DNA from: Terrimonas ferruginea DSM 30193 | GTDB lineage: Bacteria; Bacteroidota; Bacteroidia; Chitinophagales; Chitinophagaceae | Assembly (NCBI RefSeq): GCF_000425585.1 | Contig: NZ_AUDS01000009.1 | Location: forward strand, 275,708-339,707 | Direction: 5' to 3' | Length of the DNA: 64,000 bases | Part shown: positions 4,299 through 58,906 of the stretch, one piece after another | How positions within the stretch are numbered: position 1 is the stretch's first letter | Layout of the letters: every line of letters starts with the position of its first letter | The notes under the pieces: model-generated | Database searches by the model: none | Seen by the model: only the letters and a program-made list of their open reading frames with translations | What the model was told of the DNA's origin: nothing | Program-made: the position numbers and the translations under genes

Positions 4299-4748
4299 TC
4301 AGGCATCAGGTATTTCGGGCTCTACGAGTTTTGCCAGTTTTTCCAGTGACTCCTGCCAGCCGAGATAGCACATGTCTGCAGGGATCATAGCGGGAATGTT
4401 TTCCTGTTTTATTTTGATCTCTGTTCCCGCAACACTTTTCTTTAACCAAACCGAAGTGGTCATTTCTCCGGGCAGGGCAGGGTCGTCGAACTTATCGGTG
4501 TATTGCAGGAATTCATTGGCCTGGAATTCGATATAAGTGCCGCCGAAAGAATGGCCATTGCCGGTAGTGAAGTTGTGGAAAGACATTTTGAACGTACCGC
4601 CTTTTTTCGCCTCCATTTGCTGTACGGTACAAAGGAAGCCGTAGGGTGGAAGCCAGGAAGCGATGGCAACAGGATCGGTAAAGGCGCGGAATACTTTTTC
4701 CGGCGAAGTCTTGAGCACTCTGTGCAGGGAAACTGTGTTGTCTGACAT
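4299..4748 (-). CDS. SRPBCC family protein of AHSA1 type
   Basis: This is a 149-residue START-like (SRPBCC) protein of the activator-of-Hsp90-ATPase homologue type. The family folds as a helix-grip cavity that binds hydrophobic ligands; in bacteria the ligand is usually unknown. The sequence opens with VSLHRVLKTSPEKVFRAFTD and continues with ASWLPPYGF, GGTYIEFQANEFLQYTDKF and the C-terminal GWQESLEKLAKLVE, all standard for AHSA1 proteins. The length matches the family. It is monocistronic by appearance, and a CATCTTTG sequence on the minus strand at 4769-4776 resembles a -7 box. Confidence 0.92.
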   Translation of the reverse strand: MSDNTVSLHRVLKTSPEKVFRAFTDPVAIASWLPPYGFLCTVQQMEAKKGGTFKMSFHNFTTGNGHSFGGTYIEFQANEFLQYTDKFDDPALPGEMTTSVWLKKSVAGTEIKIKQENIPAMIPADMCYLGWQESLEKLAKLVEPEIPDA

Positions 4749-4835: not shown

Positions 4836-4943
4836 GTGAATGGTCAATCGTCAATCGTCAATCGTGAATAGTGAATGGTGAATAGTGAATAGGCAGCATT
4901 GACTTACTACTTAATACTTACTACTTAATACTTATAACTTAAA
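4836..4943. repeat. Composite intergenic repeat: GTSAATN heptamers followed by ACTTANW heptamers
   Basis: 4836-4892 is eight tandem 7-bp units (gtgaatg, gtcaatc three times, gtgaata, gtgaatg, gtgaata twice). After a 9-nt spacer, 4902-4943 is six tandem 7-bp units (acttact, acttaat, acttact, acttaat, acttata, acttaaa). The second array ends one base from the stop codon of the GLPGLI gene at 4945, and it reads WWTAAGT in that gene's sense direction. Confidence 0.9.
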
Positions 4944-4944
4944 C

Positions 4945-5682
4945 TCAAATCAGCCAGGCCAGCATCATCTTTTTACCATATTGATCCCAGTCTTTCAACG
5001 CTTTTTCCAAAGCCGTCATCATGCCGGTGCGATCTACCTTTTTCCCTTTGGTAGCCGGTATCACCACCTTCATGCCTGCCTCATTGAGCAATTGCACGCG
5101 CGTGGCAAACCAGGTCGTATGCAGGCGGGGAATGCCCATGCCCAATATCATTCCGGGTAAACCGGTTATGCCTTCGGGGCCACCGCTCACCGGAATTTCT
5201 TCTGCATAAAAAGCAAATACGGCGATTGTATCATAAAGAATACCTACTGCTTTGCGGCACTCGAAACCCGCAATCGTACGTGTATCGGGCGTGATCTTCC
5301 ATTTGATCTTGAGCAGGCTGTCCTCCACGAGATAAGTTTGTTCGTAGATCGGTTTTTGTGCAGTGGTGGTACCGGTGGTATAGTTGTTATATACCACGTT
5401 GTTGTCGGCAAACGGCTCAAACCATTTACCACGCGCCACCACGGCGGCCTTGGTTTGTTTGTACAGGGAATGACTGGCATCTCCCGTAAAATTGAAATAG
5501 GAAAATACTTCCTGTGGACGATTGTCTTTCGAGCGTTCAAACCATTCGGGTTGAATTTCTTTGAGCAACGGCCATACCGCTACCCGTTTTTCAAATTCAA
5601 CACTTACCTGGTTGAGGAAGGTGGTTTGTGCGCTTGCAGAAAACGCAACCAATATCAATGCTATTGAGAATATCTTTTTCAT
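4945..5682 (-). CDS. GLPGLI family protein
   Basis: This is a 245-residue secreted protein with signal peptide MKKIFSIALILVAFSASAQ. The start at 5682 is chosen for that signal; the frame extends 34 codons further upstream without a plausible leader. The family signature GITGLPGMILGMGIPR lies near residue 180. GLPGLI proteins are periplasmic or surface proteins of unknown function found in Bacteroidota, often next to a large outer-membrane beta-barrel. The same arrangement occurs here: the barrel gene ends 22 nt upstream, and the two probably form an operon. A joint role in export or uptake of a peptide is inference. Confidence 0.92.
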   Translation of the reverse strand: MKKIFSIALILVAFSASAQTTFLNQVSVEFEKRVAVWPLLKEIQPEWFERSKDNRPQEVFSYFNFTGDASHSLYKQTKAAVVARGKWFEPFADNNVVYNNYTTGTTTAQKPIYEQTYLVEDSLLKIKWKITPDTRTIAGFECRKAVGILYDTIAVFAFYAEEIPVSGGPEGITGLPGMILGMGIPRLHTTWFATRVQLLNEAGMKVVIPATKGKKVDRTGMMTALEKALKDWDQYGKKMMLAWLI

Positions 5683-13869: not shown

Positions 13870-14027
13870 TCCGCCTTTGGCGGAATGTGAAAATGTGCAA
13901 ATGTGAAAATTAAGACCCGTTTTGGCTTTAAATCAATTGAGTTACAAAGACTGGCTCAACGATTGAATCAGCGTTCTCCCCATTTCCACATTTTCACATT
14001 TACACATTTTGCGACGTAGTCGCAAAA
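13870..14027. repeat. Composite element with inverted octamer arrays and terminal hairpins
   Basis: The left end is a small hairpin (TCCGCC-TTT-GGCGGA, 13870-13884), then aaatgtga-type octamers (13884-13910). After about 70 nt come the same octamers in inverted orientation (13981-14010, units of the type CATTTNCA), overlapping a 9-bp hairpin (TTTTGCGAC-GTA-GTCGCAAAA, 14007-14027). It fills most of the gap between argS and the double-VOC gene. No open reading frame is supported inside. Confidence 0.75.
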
Positions 14028-15892: not shown

Positions 15893-16130
15893 ATAAATAG
15901 TATTAATGTGACGCAATACCGGATATGCTGTAAAGCGAAAATAAAAAGAAAAAGAAGGTAAAGCCGTAGAATAAGTATTTAAGTTGTAGAAAACGGTAAT
16001 AGAAAAAAACGTCTTTTTCAGGAGGTTTTTCCCTTGCTTTTGCCCCATCGCCGTAGTTAGTTTTGCTCAACACCACTCGTGTCACGGGAAAGCCGAAAAC
16101 CGGTCATCTAACAGAGTAGGCACAAAAAAT

Positions 16131-29142: not shown

Positions 29143-29997
29143 ATGCGTAAATCCGGTTTCCTGGTGTTCGGGCTTCTTTTGCTTGGACATTTTGCTGACG
29201 CCCAGCGTTTTCACCTGGGATTATTTGGTGGAGCAGCGGCCTACAACGGCGATCTGACGGAGAAGATTTTTCCCCGGAAAACAACCAACGGCGCTGTCGG
29301 GCTTACCGGCAACTACGAATTGACCGATAAACTGATGCTCAGAGCAGGGTTTACCTACGCAGTAGTCGGCGGTGCGGATCGCTTCAGTTCCAAACCCGAC
29401 CTCGTTGCCCGTAACCTGTCTTTTGAAACGTCCCTGGCTGAATTCAGCCTTGTTGGAGAGTATTATCTCTTCAATCTGAACGAAAACCGTTTTTCGCCTT
29501 ATGTGTTTGCGGGGCTTGGCGTTTTTCGTTTCAATCCTTACGCTTATACAACCTCCGGGGAAAAAGTATACCTCAAACCGCTCAGCACGGAAGGACAGGG
29601 CCTTGAAGGCTATCCCGACAGAAAACCGTACAGTCTTACCCAACTCAATATACCGTTCGGTGGTGGCGTTAAATATGCCATTACAGAGAATCTTCGTGTG
29701 GGGCTGGAACTGAACATGCGCAAGCTGTTCACCGATTATCTCGATGACGTGAGCAAGAATTACATTGACGCCACCGACCTGCTGACAGCTCGCGGCCAAC
29801 TGGCCGTGGATATGTCGTACCGCGGCGATGAACTGCCCGGCGGCAACCCTGATTATCCCGCCAAAGACCTTCAGCGCGGAAGCCCCAAAAGCAATGACTG
29901 GTATTATACGATGGGCCTGCACCTGACTTATCGTTTTGGTAACGGAGGTGGCGGTGGCCGCAGAAGCCGTTATGGCTGTCCGACTGTACCGCTTTGA
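29143..29997 (+). CDS. DUF6089-type outer membrane beta-barrel protein
   Basis: This is a 284-residue protein with signal peptide MRKSGFLVFGLLLLGHFADAQ and an eight-stranded-looking OmpW/DUF6089-like barrel. Characteristic pieces are LGLFGGAAAYNGDL at the start, YYLFNLNENRFSPYVFAGLG in the middle, and YTMGLHLTYRFGNG as the last strand. The tail after it is Gly- and Arg-rich (GGGGGRRSRYGCPTVPL). In Bacteroidota such proteins are common beside polysaccharide or gliding genes, but no such neighbour is seen here. The function is unknown. Confidence 0.88.
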   Translation: MRKSGFLVFGLLLLGHFADAQRFHLGLFGGAAAYNGDLTEKIFPRKTTNGAVGLTGNYELTDKLMLRAGFTYAVVGGADRFSSKPDLVARNLSFETSLAEFSLVGEYYLFNLNENRFSPYVFAGLGVFRFNPYAYTTSGEKVYLKPLSTEGQGLEGYPDRKPYSLTQLNIPFGGGVKYAITENLRVGLELNMRKLFTDYLDDVSKNYIDATDLLTARGQLAVDMSYRGDELPGGNPDYPAKDLQRGSPKSNDWYYTMGLHLTYRFGNGGGGGRRSRYGCPTVPL

Positions 29998-30035
29998 GAA
30001 GGTTTAAAGCGTAAGGTGTAAGGTTTAACAGCCTT
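29998..30035 (+). repeat. Heptamer array after the DUF6089 stop codon (variant of the WWTAAGT repeat)
   Basis: Beginning four bases after the stop codon there are about four 7-bp units of the type NNTAAGG (tttaaag, cgtaagg, tgtaagg, tttaaca), then ccttaag. The pattern is related to the WWTAAGT arrays at other sites and has the same orientation relative to the gene. Confidence 0.55.
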
Positions 30036-34363: not shown

Positions 34364-34485
34364 GGAAATGTGGAAATGTGCCCGCCTGGCGGGAGGTGTA
34401 AAATAGTGAATAGTGAATAGTCAATAGTGAATAGTCAATAGTGAATAGTGAATGGCTGGTTTACTTAATACTTATAACTTAAAAC
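34364..34485. repeat. Composite intergenic repeat: octamers, small hairpin, GTSAATA heptamers, ACTTAWW heptamers
   Basis: Just after the TraB stop come two ggaaatgt octamers (34364-34380), then hairpin CCCGC-CTG-GCGGG (34381-34393), then seven 7-bp units gtgaata/gtcaata (34406-34454), then acttaat, acttata, acttaaa (34463-34483). The last array sits beside the ndk terminator and reads WWTAAGT in the ndk sense. Confidence 0.88.
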
Positions 34486-34512
34486 TAAAAAAGCGCCTTT
34501 AGAGGCGCTTTT
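34486..34512 (-). terminator. Terminator of ndk
   Basis: A 7-bp stem (AAGCGCC with GGCGCTT) and 6-nt loop are followed on the minus strand by a run of T. It is 22 nt past the ndk stop codon. Confidence 0.85.
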
Positions 34513-47880: not shown

Positions 47881-47919
47881 CAATAGTGAACCGTCAATCG
47901 TCATCCCGAAGCCTCGGGA
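47881..47919. repeat. Degenerate GTSAATR heptamers and a REP-like palindrome
   Basis: caatagtgaaccgtcaatcg (47881-47900) is a short, imperfect form of the GTGAATA/GTCAATC array. It runs into ATCCCGAAGCCTCGGGA (47903-47919), an exact copy of the palindrome at 30367-30383. Confidence 0.6.
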
Positions 47920-47932
47920 GTGAATCGGCAAT

Positions 47933-47965
47933 AAAATAATCCCCTGCGCGGCAGGGGATTATTTT
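47933..47965. terminator. Bidirectional terminator-like hairpin
   Basis: A 15-bp perfect stem (AAAATAATCCCCTGC with its complement) with a GCG loop; the A/T ends give T-runs on both strands. It probably ends the beta-barrel transcript coming from 48104. Confidence 0.8.
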
Positions 47966-48015
47966 CAATAAGGCAATAAGTCAATGGGTGAATGGGGCGT
48001 CGGTTCTACAACAAC

Positions 48016-48041
48016 CATGGTTCGTGTATACACGAACCATG
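48016..48041. repeat. 26-bp perfect palindrome, copy 1
   Basis: Half-site CATGGTTCGTGTA followed directly by its reverse complement. The same core occurs at 54130-54159. Confidence 0.9.
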
Positions 48042-48052
48042 ACTTAGACAAC

Positions 48053-48095
48053 ACTTGTTACTTAAAACTTATAACCTTAGCCCGAAGTGTCGGGC
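48053..48095. repeat. ACTTAWW heptamers and a GCCCGA hairpin
   Basis: acttgtt, acttaaa, acttata, accttag (48053-48080) read WWTAAGT in the sense of the beta-barrel gene that ends at 48104. They overlap by one base a GCCCGA-AGTG-TCGGGC hairpin (48080-48095). Confidence 0.75.
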
Positions 48096-51548: not shown

Positions 51549-51623
51549 GGTGGCTAACCGGGTTCGAACCGGCGACCCTCAGAACCACAATCTGATGCTC
51601 TAACCAACTGAGCTATAGCCACC
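51549..51623 (-). tRNA. tRNA-His (anticodon GTG)
   Basis: On the minus strand the 7-bp acceptor stem is GTGGCTA/TAGCCAC, the D-arm starts GCTC-AGTTGGTTAG, and the anticodon stem TCAGA/TCTGA has loop TTGTGGT with anticodon GTG. The T-arm is GCCGG-TTCGAAC-CCGGT-like. The discriminator is C and the base before the acceptor stem is G, so the histidine identity pair G-1:C73 is present. The 3' CCA is not encoded. A terminator follows. Confidence 0.97.
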
Positions 51624-51774
51624 ATCTTTTCAGGCTGCAAAAATAGAAAAAAAACTAAACCAAAATAAAATCCATTAAAAAATAGTTGGTTAGACCGTAT
51701 AACCCACGTTAAAACCTTTTGGCAAAAACCCTTGTTAAAAGGTTGGGAAAACACGAAATCCATCGTTTTTGTGT

Positions 51775-51782
51775 TATTTTTG
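51775..51782 (+). promoter_or_regulatory. -7 box (TATTTTTG) for the processing protease gene
   Basis: A full TAnnTTTG match 33 nt before the ATG at 51816. It lies inside the longest open frame, which supports the later start. Confidence 0.5.
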
Positions 51783-51815
51783 GTAATGCGATCTGCAGTA
51801 AAATATTTGACGAAT

Positions 51816-53972
51816 ATGAAGAGACTACCCTTTGTGCTGTTGTTAATTGTGGCCGGTTTTTTTGTCGCTTTCCGTACCATTGGCGCAGGCACCTCCGACC
51901 CTCCCACCAAGTATGAAGAAATCCTGCGAATGGTGGGAGAAATGCTTACACAAGCTCATTTCAGTCCCCAGGACATCGATGATAAGTTTTCGGAAAAGGT
52001 TTTTGATAAATACATCAGCGGCCTCGATCCGGAAAAAACCTTTTTCCTGCAAAGTGATGTAGATGCACTGCGCGCGAAATATGGCAAAAGCATCGACGAA
52101 GAAATCAAAGGCGGCAAAGTGGAATTTTTCCTGGAAGCCGGAAAAGTATTCCGTACACGCATGGAAGAAGCCAATAAAATGGCAACCTCCCTGCTCGCAC
52201 AACCCTTTCACTACAATGTAGATGAAGAAGTGCAGATGGACCCTGCTAAGATTGGGTATACAAAAACAGAAGCCGAACGCCAGGAACGCTGGCGCAAGAA
52301 AATAAAGTTCATGTCGCTTGAACGTTATGTAGACCTGCTCGATGCCCGCGAGAAAAACAAAGGCACCGAAGGGTTTACCGTAAAGAACGACACGGAACTG
52401 GAAAAAGAAGCGCGTGAGAAAACCAAAAAGGTCACCGATCGCGTATTCGAACGTTATCGTTTCAAATTCAGTGATGATGATATGTTCAGCATTTTCGTCA
52501 ATGCAATTACTACCATCATGGACCCGCATACGGAATTTTTCCCTCCGGTAGATAAGCGTTATTTCGATGAAGAAATGAGCGGTACATTCTACGGTATCGG
52601 CGCTTCCCTGCAATATGATGAAGGAACGATCAAGATCACCAGCGTGGTAACAGGAAGCCCTGCCTTCAAATCCGGCGAAATCCAAGTGGGTGATGTCATC
52701 ATGAAAGTGGCGCAAGGCAAAACTGCCGAGCCCGTTGAACTGATCGGGTACCTGGTAACGGACGCCGTAAAACTGATCAGAGGCAAGGAAGGATCAGAAG
52801 TAACGCTGACACTGAAACGCAAAGACGGAACGATCAAAGTAGTAACGCTGAAACGCGAGAAGATCGAAAATGACCTCGATACCTACGCGCGCAGTGCGGT
52901 GGTCAAAGAAGGCAATTCGAAGATCGGTTATATTTATCTGCCCGAATTCTATGCACACTTCGACGATCCCAATGGACGCCGCAGCTACATCGACGTGGCA
53001 CGTGAAGTGCAAAAGCTGAAAGATGAAAAAGTCGACGGTATCGTGATCGACCTGCGCAACAACGGCGGCGGATCACTGTATGATGTAGTGCAAATGGCCG
53101 GGCTCTTTATCGACGAAGGACCGATCGTGCAGGTAAAAGACAAAGACAACAAGCCGAGTGTACTGAAAGATAAAGACAAGAGCGTCCTCTATTCTGGCCC
53201 GCTGGCAGTAATGGTCAATGAATTCAGTGCTTCGGCCTCTGAAATATTTGCCGCAGCGATCCAGGACTATGGACGCGGTGTGATCATCGGCAGTACGTCT
53301 ACCTATGGAAAAGGTACGGTGCAGCGCAACATCGGTATCGATAAAAATGGTTTCTCTTTCTCCAACTCCGAACTCGGAAGTGTGAAACTGACCTTGCAGA
53401 AATTCTACCGTATCAATGGCGGCTCTACACAATTGCGTGGGGTGAGTTCTGACATTGTTCTTCCTGATCAGTACGAGTACCTGAAAGTGCGCGAGAAAGA
53501 TGATGAAAATGCATTGCCCTGGGACGAAATATCGAAGTCTCCTTACACAGGATGGAACGGCGGATATGATCTGAAAACAATCCAGCAACTGAGCGCACAA
53601 CGTTTGCAGCGCGACAGCACGTTCCGCATGATCCAGCGCAATACACAATGGTTGTCGAAGGAAAATGACAAAACATATTCGCTGCAACTGGACAAATACC
53701 GCAAAGAGCAGAAAGCGATTCGTGAAACGGTATCGCAAACAGAAAAGCTGATGAAGCTGAAGCAGGAGATTGCGGTAGATCCGTTGACCGGAGAAGCTGA
53801 TAAATGGGCGGCTGACAAGAACAAACAAGACCGTTTCAATCAGTGGCTGAAAAACCTGCGTCAGGATATATATCTTGATCAGGCGGTAAAAGTGGTGAAT
53901 GATGTGATCAACCAGCAAAACCTGGCTCGTGGCAATAAACCTGTGGAAGAACAGCCGAAGAAGGCGTTTTGA
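51816..53972 (+). CDS. Carboxy-terminal processing peptidase (Prc/Tsp type)
   Basis: This is a 718-residue S41-family protease with an N-terminal signal/anchor (MKRLPFVLLLIVAGFFVAFR). The helical N-terminal domain of Prc covers about 35-225. The PDZ domain covers about 230-330 (GTFYGIGASLQYDEGTIKIT, then SGEIQVGDVIMKVAQGK). The peptidase core has catalytic Ser in VNEFSASASEIFAAAIQDYG and Lys in STSTYGKGTVQ. The C-terminal DUF3340-like region is Lys/Gln-rich. It trims or degrades periplasmic proteins from their C-termini. The ATG at 51786 is also possible. A strong terminator follows. Confidence 0.94.
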   Translation: MKRLPFVLLLIVAGFFVAFRTIGAGTSDPPTKYEEILRMVGEMLTQAHFSPQDIDDKFSEKVFDKYISGLDPEKTFFLQSDVDALRAKYGKSIDEEIKGGKVEFFLEAGKVFRTRMEEANKMATSLLAQPFHYNVDEEVQMDPAKIGYTKTEAERQERWRKKIKFMSLERYVDLLDAREKNKGTEGFTVKNDTELEKEAREKTKKVTDRVFERYRFKFSDDDMFSIFVNAITTIMDPHTEFFPPVDKRYFDEEMSGTFYGIGASLQYDEGTIKITSVVTGSPAFKSGEIQVGDVIMKVAQGKTAEPVELIGYLVTDAVKLIRGKEGSEVTLTLKRKDGTIKVVTLKREKIENDLDTYARSAVVKEGNSKIGYIYLPEFYAHFDDPNGRRSYIDVAREVQKLKDEKVDGIVIDLRNNGGGSLYDVVQMAGLFIDEGPIVQVKDKDNKPSVLKDKDKSVLYSGPLAVMVNEFSASASEIFAAAIQDYGRGVIIGSTSTYGKGTVQRNIGIDKNGFSFSNSELGSVKLTLQKFYRINGGSTQLRGVSSDIVLPDQYEYLKVREKDDENALPWDEISKSPYTGWNGGYDLKTIQQLSAQRLQRDSTFRMIQRNTQWLSKENDKTYSLQLDKYRKEQKAIRETVSQTEKLMKLKQEIAVDPLTGEADKWAADKNKQDRFNQWLKNLRQDIYLDQAVKVVNDVINQQNLARGNKPVEEQPKKAF

Positions 53973-54002
53973 GTTGTAAGTCTTAAGTAATAAGTTATAA
54001 GT
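53973..54002 (+). repeat. WWTAAGT heptamer array directly after the protease stop codon
   Basis: Two bases after the TGA come tgtaagt, cttaagt, aataagt and tataagt in the sense direction, running into the terminator hairpin. Confidence 0.8.
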
Positions 54003-54053: not shown

Positions 54054-54186
54054 ATGATTCGTGTAGACGTGATGCACGATGTTTATTCGGGCTGGACATG
54101 AAGACCTGGATCAGGCTGGCAGCCTACTGCCCATGGTTCGTGTATACACGAACCATGGGTGTTTATCGGGGAAGGTATGAAGTCGC
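54054..54186. repeat. Imperfect direct duplication containing the 30-bp palindrome, copy 2
   Basis: A unit starting catgattcgtgtagac (54054) is repeated in altered form from catggttcgtgtatac (54132); both continue into tgtttat-cggg and a-atgaag. The second unit carries a perfect 30-bp palindrome (54130-54159) with half-site CCCATGGTTCGTGTA. No reading frame is supported. Confidence 0.75.
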
Positions 54187-54741: not shown

Positions 54742-54892
54742 CCCTGAGTTTATCGAAGGGTCAAAAGTCAAAAGATGTCAGTTGTCAATGGTGAATAGTA
54801 AATAAGAAAAAGAACCCAGGATTTCACGCAAAGCTACATAAGGAGCAAAGGCGCAAAGATTATCACCTATTACTTAATACTTATTACTTAAA
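54742..54892. repeat. Cluster of five short repeat types
   Basis: In order: palindrome-like ACCCTGAGTTTATCGAAGGGT (54742-54762; its first 20 bases resemble widely spread REP sequences), two gtcaaaa heptamers (54761-54774), three GTSAATG-type heptamers (54784-54804), a gcaaag-based stretch (54826-54859), and four ACTTAWW heptamers (54865-54892). The last array reads WWTAAGT towards the stop codon at 54907. Confidence 0.8.
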
Positions 54893-58812: not shown

Positions 58813-58820
58813 CAAAAATA
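58813..58820 (-). promoter_or_regulatory. -7 box (TATTTTTG) for the OmpA-like gene
   Basis: A full TAnnTTTG match on the minus strand, 36 nt before the ATG, at the edge of an inverted repeat. Confidence 0.5.
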
Positions 58821-58906
58821 AGTTATAAGTATTAAGTAATAAGTTTTAGGTCATAAATCACCGTAAATACTTATAACCTAAAACTTACTACTTATAACTT
58901 AATACT
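58816..58906. repeat. Inverted repeat made of WWTAAGT / ACTTAWW heptamers
   Basis: The right arm (58865-58906) directly follows the ALDH stop codon and reads ATTAAGT, TATAAGT, AGTAAGT, TTTAGGT, TATAAGT in its sense. The left arm (58816-58857) is an imperfect inverted copy sharing the core GTTTTAGGT. Together they could fold into a hairpin with arms of about 40 nt. Confidence 0.85.

Follow-up and report, generated by a model that had tools for sequence, protein, structure and literature searches.

Repeat arrays in the analysed window

The window (the whole 64,000-nucleotide stretch of DNA analysed) carries intergenic arrays of two 7-nt units, GTSAATN (the A word) and ACTTANW (the B word). Element 1 lies between an AHSA1-family gene (4299-4748, minus strand) and a Porph_ging gene (4945-5682, minus strand), with its B arm ending one base short of the stop codon of the latter. 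Element 2 lies where a TraB/gumN-family gene and ndk converge, and a terminator-like hairpin distinct from the array is found 3' of its B arm at 34489-34512. In the third element the two arms are separated by a GCAAAG stretch, and a homotypic element made of two B arms has genes for an OmpA-family protein and an aldehyde dehydrogenase on its two sides. The arrays are as follows:

4836-4891, plus strand: A arm of element 1, 8 exact GTSAATN units
4892-4901, plus strand: linker of element 1, 10 nt, GGCAGCATTG
4902-4943, plus strand: B arm of element 1, 6 exact ACTTANW units
34406-34454, plus strand: A arm of element 2, 7 exact units
34455-34462, plus strand: linker of element 2, GCTGGTTT, GGCTGTTT-like
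34463-34490, plus strand: B arm of element 2, 4 units with 1 mismatch, units 1-3 exact
47881-48080, plus strand: decayed element with scattered A-like units, palindromes and B units
53968-54002, minus strand: B-word array that begins at the TGA stop codon (53970-53972) ending the plus-strand ORF 51732-53972
54757-54774, plus strand: repeat of the K word (GTCAAAA), purine-rich left side of the third element
54777-54804, plus strand: A arm of the third element, 4 units with 2 mismatches
54865-54892, plus strand: B arm of the third element, 4 units with 1 mismatch
58817-58851, minus strand: left arm of the homotypic B<..B> element
58869-58903, plus strand: right arm of the homotypic B<..B> element

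An initial annotation of this DNA had described eight A and six B units at 4836-4943, all of which proved exact, although the spacer, given there as 9 nt, measures 10 nt. At 34406-34483 it had read seven units and then three; the seven A and three exact B units are present, but a fourth B unit with one mismatch extends the array to 34490. At 54784-54892, described as three units and then four, the four B units and the intervening GCAAAG stretch were found as described, but the A arm consists of four units and begins at 54777. The copy at 47881-48080 is indeed decayed: it contains three B units with one mismatch at 48053-48073, a terminator-like palindrome at about 47933-47965 and the palindrome CATGGTTCGTGTATACACGAACCATG at 48016-48041, and no A array above the array threshold. 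The catalogue lacked the three B arrays at 53968-54002, 58817-58851 and 58869-58903, the first of which is followed by a terminator-like hairpin and then by the palindrome CCCATGGTTCGTGTATACACGAACCATGGG at 54130-54159. Ten first-order Markov sequences of the window length yielded 0 such arrays.

The Rfam search gave 0 matches at the gathering threshold at the elements. Elsewhere in the window there is a match to the DUF805b cis-regulatory RNA (16083-16122, plus strand, 35.8 bits against a threshold of 35.6) and a tRNA (51549-51622, minus strand).

Abundance and pairing of the two words

In the directly read sample of 0.86 Mb of the genome (the window plus 40 stretches), period 7 accounts for 170 repeat segments, period 8 for 40, and each of the periods 4-6 and 9-13 for 1-4. 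Genome-wide, a paired pattern in which three A units are followed by 3-33 nt and then by two B cores gave 67 matches in the forward and 68 in the reverse direction (overlapping matches counted), against 0 and 0 for the reversed pattern, which confirms the earlier suggestion that the two arrays co-occur beyond chance. When A arrays of at least 3 units were compared with B arrays of at least 2 units lying within 150 nt, 47 of 85 A arrays had a same-strand B array downstream and 2 had one upstream in the opposite orientation; 46 of the 72 B arrays of at least 3 units had a same-strand A array upstream and one had an A array upstream in the opposite orientation. The co-occurrence proposed for the two arrays thus holds for many of them, but 36 A and 25 B arrays are without a partner at this distance.

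The order of the arrays, also claimed to be fixed, is A> B> in 67 of 69 A-B pairs no more than 200 nt apart and A< B> in the other 2; in these counts the pairs sharing one gap are not independent. Further words take part in such pairs, namely D (YNCCTTA) and K (KTCAAAA), with A> D> in 19/19, K> A> in 9/12 and K> B> in 13/15 cases, and pairs of one word comprise 8 B< B>, 9 B> B>, 23 A> A> and 0 A> A<. The ends are combined as A-A', A-B and B'-B in 0, 67 and 8 cases, compared with about 15, 37 and 23 under random pairing. The full vocabulary comprises several words, A and B among them. Consequently, only a part of the proposal of one dispersed A+B element can be retained: the pairing is not random, but A and B belong to a larger set, and their order follows from a general rule given in the next section. 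An array of AAGGTGT, the complement of the D word, occurs at 29999-30028 of the window and starts two bases past the TGA of the plus-strand ORF 29143-29997.

In each paired element one arm is rich in purines (GTSAATV) and the other in pyrimidines (ACTTAHW), and the two flank a centre that was variable across the 53 cases compared. In some elements this centre contains GGCTGTT or another of the dispersed palindromic repeats; of 95 B arrays, 21 had GGCTGTT no more than 25 nt upstream, with 0.27 expected from its overall frequency, and centres and gaps contain other dispersed repeats as well. The palindrome GGTTCGTGTATACACGAACC, seen in the window at 48016-48041 and 54130-54159, is repeated in the centres of several elements of the same genome.

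Placement and orientation relative to genes

Genes were called with a simple hexamer-based caller of our own, not taken from an annotation, and the called coding share of the two long contigs was 89-90%. The midpoint fell inside a called gene for 0/85 A and 0/72 B arrays of at least 3 units. Among gaps of at least 60 nt, A arrays were present in 24/54 convergent, 54/267 tandem and 4/91 divergent ones; genes and divergent gaps are thus avoided. Of the A arrays that follow a gene end, 8/63 start at offset -4, so that their own GTGA provides the TGA stop. A polarity derived from transcription or replication was rejected, since the orientation of arrays in tandem gaps shows no transcription bias (24 vs 31, p=0.42) and arrays occur on either strand along the two long contigs.

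A different polarity is evident when the outermost pair of arrays is considered in every gap with at least two period-7 arrays, each array being scored as purine-rich (R) or pyrimidine-rich (Y). Of 52 such gaps in the genome, 45 were RY, 5 RR, 2 YY and 0 YR; in the relative G021, which uses other words, 42/42 were RY and none was reversed, and the 40 gaps listed for it include tandem, convergent and 6 divergent ones. In other words, in paired arrays the purine-rich strand runs 5' to 3' from the flanking gene toward the middle of the gap. The 5' side of the purine strand was the side nearer to a gene in 139/167 arrays (median distances 29 vs 139 nt) and in 109/130 arrays of G021 (20 vs 118 nt). 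Arrays in divergent gaps obeyed the rule in 11/17 and 16/18 cases, respectively. Single arrays followed it less strictly, in 40/47 and 18/30 cases, with 7/47 and 12/30 against it, and looser thresholds gave one YR pair in the genome itself and one or two in G021. With A purine-rich and B pyrimidine-rich, the inward rule accounts for the order A then B. It leaves unexplained why the partner of A is B and not the complement of A, for which a second, lineage-specific rule is needed. The arms share an inverted 9-mer in 43/46 pairs of G021, where they are mostly complementary, and in 5/51 pairs of the genome itself; in G021 the arms within one locus are slightly more alike than those across loci.

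For octamer pairs of the same genome (2 RY, 3 YY) the rule is not clear. In the window, the octamer arrays AATGTGAA (13884-13910) and CATTTTCA (13981-14010) are inverted relative to each other, with purines prevailing in the left array and pyrimidines in the right one. The looser threshold yielded 6 pairs in 38 other genomes (3 RY, 1 YR, 1 RR and 1 YY). The stretches examined from 36 other relatives (0.69 Mb) contained 14 period-7 segments, too few for pairs, and the rule is therefore supported by two genomes and a published report.

Variation among units

Unit profiles were built by requiring the five fixed positions in two neighbouring units and leaving out units with more than two fixed-position mismatches. 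In both words the variation is almost wholly confined to two of the seven positions, and the fixed positions are about 97-100% intact. Middle A units (n=356) have G 214, C 141, T 1 and A 0 at position 3, and C 155, G 130, A 67 and T 4 at position 7. B units (n=213) have A 84, T 64, C 61 and G 4 at position 6, and T 151, A 47, C 13 and G 2 at position 7. The B core ACTTA is the same-direction (unreversed) complement of the A core TGAAT, which may be due to chance.

Simple slippage should make neighbouring units alike, and no such likeness of A units was found at lag 1 (identity of 0.194 for adjacent and 0.187 for random units), with 0.279 at lag 2. The identity of A units was 0.214 within and 0.187 between arrays; for B units the respective values were 0.336 and 0.183. 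Recent copying should leave much string sharing among loci, and the sharing of A strings is weak: 2506 two-unit strings were common to loci against 2379±104 after shuffling, 398 three-unit strings against 331±25, and 14 five-unit strings against 3.1±1.9. The near-random, two-position variation of A thus fits neither of these two usual accounts well.

Distribution in related genomes

The scan of relatives covered 147 genomes, including the one under study, for four units in a row (GTnAATn or ACTTAnn), overlapping matches being counted. The A pattern was found in 47/147 genomes, with 939 matches in the genome itself, 7 in G001 of the same genus, and 244, 143, 91 and 53 in G110, G021, G444 and G055; the reversed A pattern matched in 8/147. 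The B pattern was found in 30/147 genomes (416 matches in the genome itself, 78 in G051 and 66 in G047). A reversed-B control was not used, because reversed ACTTA is ATTCA, a part of the complement of A, and hence not neutral. Both words occurred in 16/147 genomes against 9.6 expected (p=0.008, or 0.013 without the genome under study), and of the 15 genomes in which A matched 20 times or more, 10 lacked any B match. Close A-B pairing was seen in 2/99 genomes, and in 3/394 with a looser pattern, the genome itself being included both times. As judged from these scans, close A-B pairing is lineage-specific, since most A-rich genomes are without B and the paired pattern occurs in so few genomes.

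Among the matches listed, the free positions take genome-specific letters; position 7 is nearly always A in G099 and C in G120. GTGAATAGTGAATAGTCAATAGTGAAT is present at many places in G099, and G113 has long uniform ACTTAAC arrays; in these two genomes copying or slippage looks clearer than in the genome under study. A conserved position next to particular genes was rejected as an explanation, as no sharing of array positions with G021 was detectable among 121 reciprocal best hits, a comparison of low power: 5 of the 3' gaps had arrays in both genomes, 17 only in the genome itself, 4 only in G021 and 31 in neither (p=0.29), and for 5' gaps p was 0.44. The gumN-family protein, encoded beside element 2, was also scanned for in named genomes, which gave a single distant Moritella locus.

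Proposed origin of the elements

From these results a tentative explanation may be proposed, to which we assign a probability of roughly 0.42: the element is an intergenic repeat of the heptameric class, non-coding, dispersed and two-armed, promoter-avoiding and probably non-essential, that arose by the spread of a founder and subsequent remodelling of its arms. The founder, A - AACAGCC..GGCTGTT - B, would have spread among the promoter-free gaps of this lineage through a copying process. Exchange between the hundreds of similar arrays would then have extended, shortened and reshuffled the arms, and slippage, clearer in B, may also have remodelled them. The element would persist because the 3' ends of genes tolerate it, with no need for a function in the host. 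Such an origin is favoured by the order kept in 67/69 pairs, the heterotypic ends and GGCTGTT near 21/95 B arrays; by equal use of orientations and strands, as expected of an element landing either way round; by a placement that declines from convergent through tandem to divergent gaps and spares called genes; and by positions not detectably common with G021, the other dispersed repeats in the centres and the sharing of five-unit strings. Several observations speak against it. The search for a mobilising enzyme, confined to the Y1 transposase profile, gave only a weak match of 24.6 bits, the GGCTGTT motif is missing from most linkers, and two- and three-unit A strings are hardly above the shuffled level, less than recent copying predicts. 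The two-position variation, and the inward rule kept in G021 with other words, need more than a founder. The 5 RR and 2 YY gaps, the YR pairs at looser thresholds, the octamer pairs and the single-array exceptions are awkward for both this origin and the inward rule.

A bolder reading, which we consider unlikely, is that a hitherto unrecognised DNA process common to distant bacteria writes purine-rich heptamers, fixed in their core and free at two positions, into intergenic DNA inward from each flank, independently of transcription direction and of quadruplexes, the words being lineage-specific and the geometry constant.

The arrays could also act in RNA at the 3' ends of genes, as a two-way terminator, a hairpin or a translational stop in all frames, a rather improbable function. 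Arrays often start at stop codons, as do the 8/63 A arrays that supply TGA, and the arms of G021 are complementary in 43/46 pairs. Nevertheless, A-B hairpin arms were rejected, because the predicted A-B pairing (-7.1 kcal/mol) is no better than that of column-permuted units (-8.9 kcal/mol, 61% of permutations being at least as good) and an inverted 9-mer is rare in the pairs of this genome. A terminator-like core as the defining part was rejected likewise, with a fold z-score below -2 in only 9/42 elements. Three-frame stops are encountered inward in 124/169 arrays and in 110/133 arrays of G021, compared with 45 and 13 outward; however, the stop content is not enriched over permuted units in the genome itself (0.70 vs 0.66), although it is to some extent in G021 (0.80 vs 0.55), and the inward rule is kept by most arrays in divergent gaps, so that an all-frame stop function was rejected. 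The absence of orientation bias in tandem gaps is likewise not what a 3'-end element would show.

Improbable to a somewhat greater degree is an origin at breaks or gaps of non-coding DNA, where a common template or a repeating polymerase would supply both 3' ends with purine-rich heptamers and the extended ends would be joined in a head-to-head fashion, comparable to telomere fusions. It predicts the inward rule whatever the arrangement of genes, as seen in 45/52 gaps here and in 42/42 of G021 (0 reversed, 6 divergent among the 40 listed), and young arrays, with their fixed positions intact, varied at set positions in a near-random draw. On the other hand, with free ends A would often be expected on the two sides alike, and A-A' was found 0 times against 67 for A-B; moreover, the depth of the rule comes from two genomes, the few pairs of the 38 others were of all four kinds, and the octamer pairs of this genome include more YY than RY.

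To a similar extent we doubt that the arrays are binding sites kept for insulation, repression or chromosome organisation, where a putative protein would bind each heptamer at five specified positions with two free ones, by analogy with the omega protein of pSM19035. Units of both words in which five positions are near-invariant and the other two restricted would agree with it, as would cores that are the same across genera with differing free letters (among the matches listed) and the WATCACW heptads of the same design described in PMC9499535. The A copy number (939 vs 7 matches within one genus) and array positions not detectably common with G021 are difficult to reconcile with such a role.

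The least probable is that the arms are ordinary heptanucleotide microsatellites, each expanded at its site by slippage, which has been proposed for heptamers in general from a polymerase footprint of seven bases: the dominance of period 7, as in the surveys quoted in PMC4679880 and PMC4692102, the likeness of B units within arrays and that of A units at lag 2 would suit it, but the same few words at many loci and in many genera, adjacent A units no more alike than random ones and variation at only two positions do not, and the inward rule and the A-B pairing are left unexplained.

Relation to known repeats

REP elements are dispersed extragenic short palindromes with a tagged end, partnered by the Y1 transposase RAYT. 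The present repeats are likewise dispersed and extragenic, with palindromic centres in some, but they are heptamer arrays rather than short palindromic units. A RAYT origin is considered unlikely, the Y1 transposase profile search of the genome having given that single weak match (against a cut-off of 23 bits).

Among published repeats, the nearest counterpart found is the G-rich heptamer of Xanthomonas and Nostoc. The heptamers of Xanthomonas, GGGAATC or (GGGANTN)n, are described in PMC4692102 as dispersed, intergenic and rare between divergent ORFs, with 70 and 75 convergent pairs and a mean distance of 28 nt to the 5' neighbour vs 160 nt to the other; the GGGGA(C/T)T repeats of Nostoc are said there to form few pairs, and both were studied as G-quadruplexes. 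As far as that account goes, the present repeat resembles this class in its 7-nt unit, dispersal, intergenic location and scarcity in divergent gaps, and resembles the Xanthomonas repeats further in having the 5' side of the purine-rich strand near an ORF and convergent pairs. It differs in that both Xanthomonas arms are built of one word, whereas A is paired with a different word, B, and in that the A and B words exclude GGG and CCC, in contrast to the G-tract words described in PMC4692102. Accordingly, GGG or CCC was found in 0/106 A and 0/95 B arrays, while GGG occurs in 22/169 of all period-7 arrays of the genome and in 42/133 of G021. The element belongs to the wider heptameric intergenic class and not to the quadruplex family, because its A and B arrays are without G-tracts. 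A very similar geometry, with words unable to make G-runs, makes quadruplexes unlikely as its general cause.

TAACTGA repeats are described in PMC4679880 from Beggiatoaceae, Cyanobacteria and a few Bacteroidetes; in the main genome most of them immediately precede start codons, in one orientation. According to that description, they share with the present repeats the intergenic heptamer arrays, the sporadic distribution and, in some genomes, the mixing with other heptamers, but their word is different, and no two-armed rule is reported in the part of PMC4679880 that we draw on. The parS heptads of pSM19035 are contiguous 7-bp WATCACW units in direct or inverted order, and A and B units are comparable to them in having a fixed core and two variable positions; PMC9499535, however, describes six plasmid promoter sites whose ribbon-helix-helix protein is known, as opposed to hundreds of chromosomal arrays here.

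The initial annotation knew of no named family for the element, and no report of the A-B element was recognised among the open-licence PMC papers listed by literature searches, but the wider heptameric intergenic class has been published, in the parts of PMC4692102 and PMC4679880 used here. Since the inward rule amounts to a simple statistic, applicable to any genome, the old question why bacteria favour seven-base repeats becomes testable.

Other repeats of the same genome

Another dispersed repeat, distinct from these elements and reaching about 280 bp, occurs at C2 100993-101608, 227954-228365 and 256670-257079 and at C5 267601-268218; it contains TTGTTGGTCGGGAGACCAACAA palindromes and shows 83-90% identity among these gaps. 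At C2 334523-335272 there is a tandem array of roughly 140-bp units, each with B words, GGCTGTT and a palindrome.
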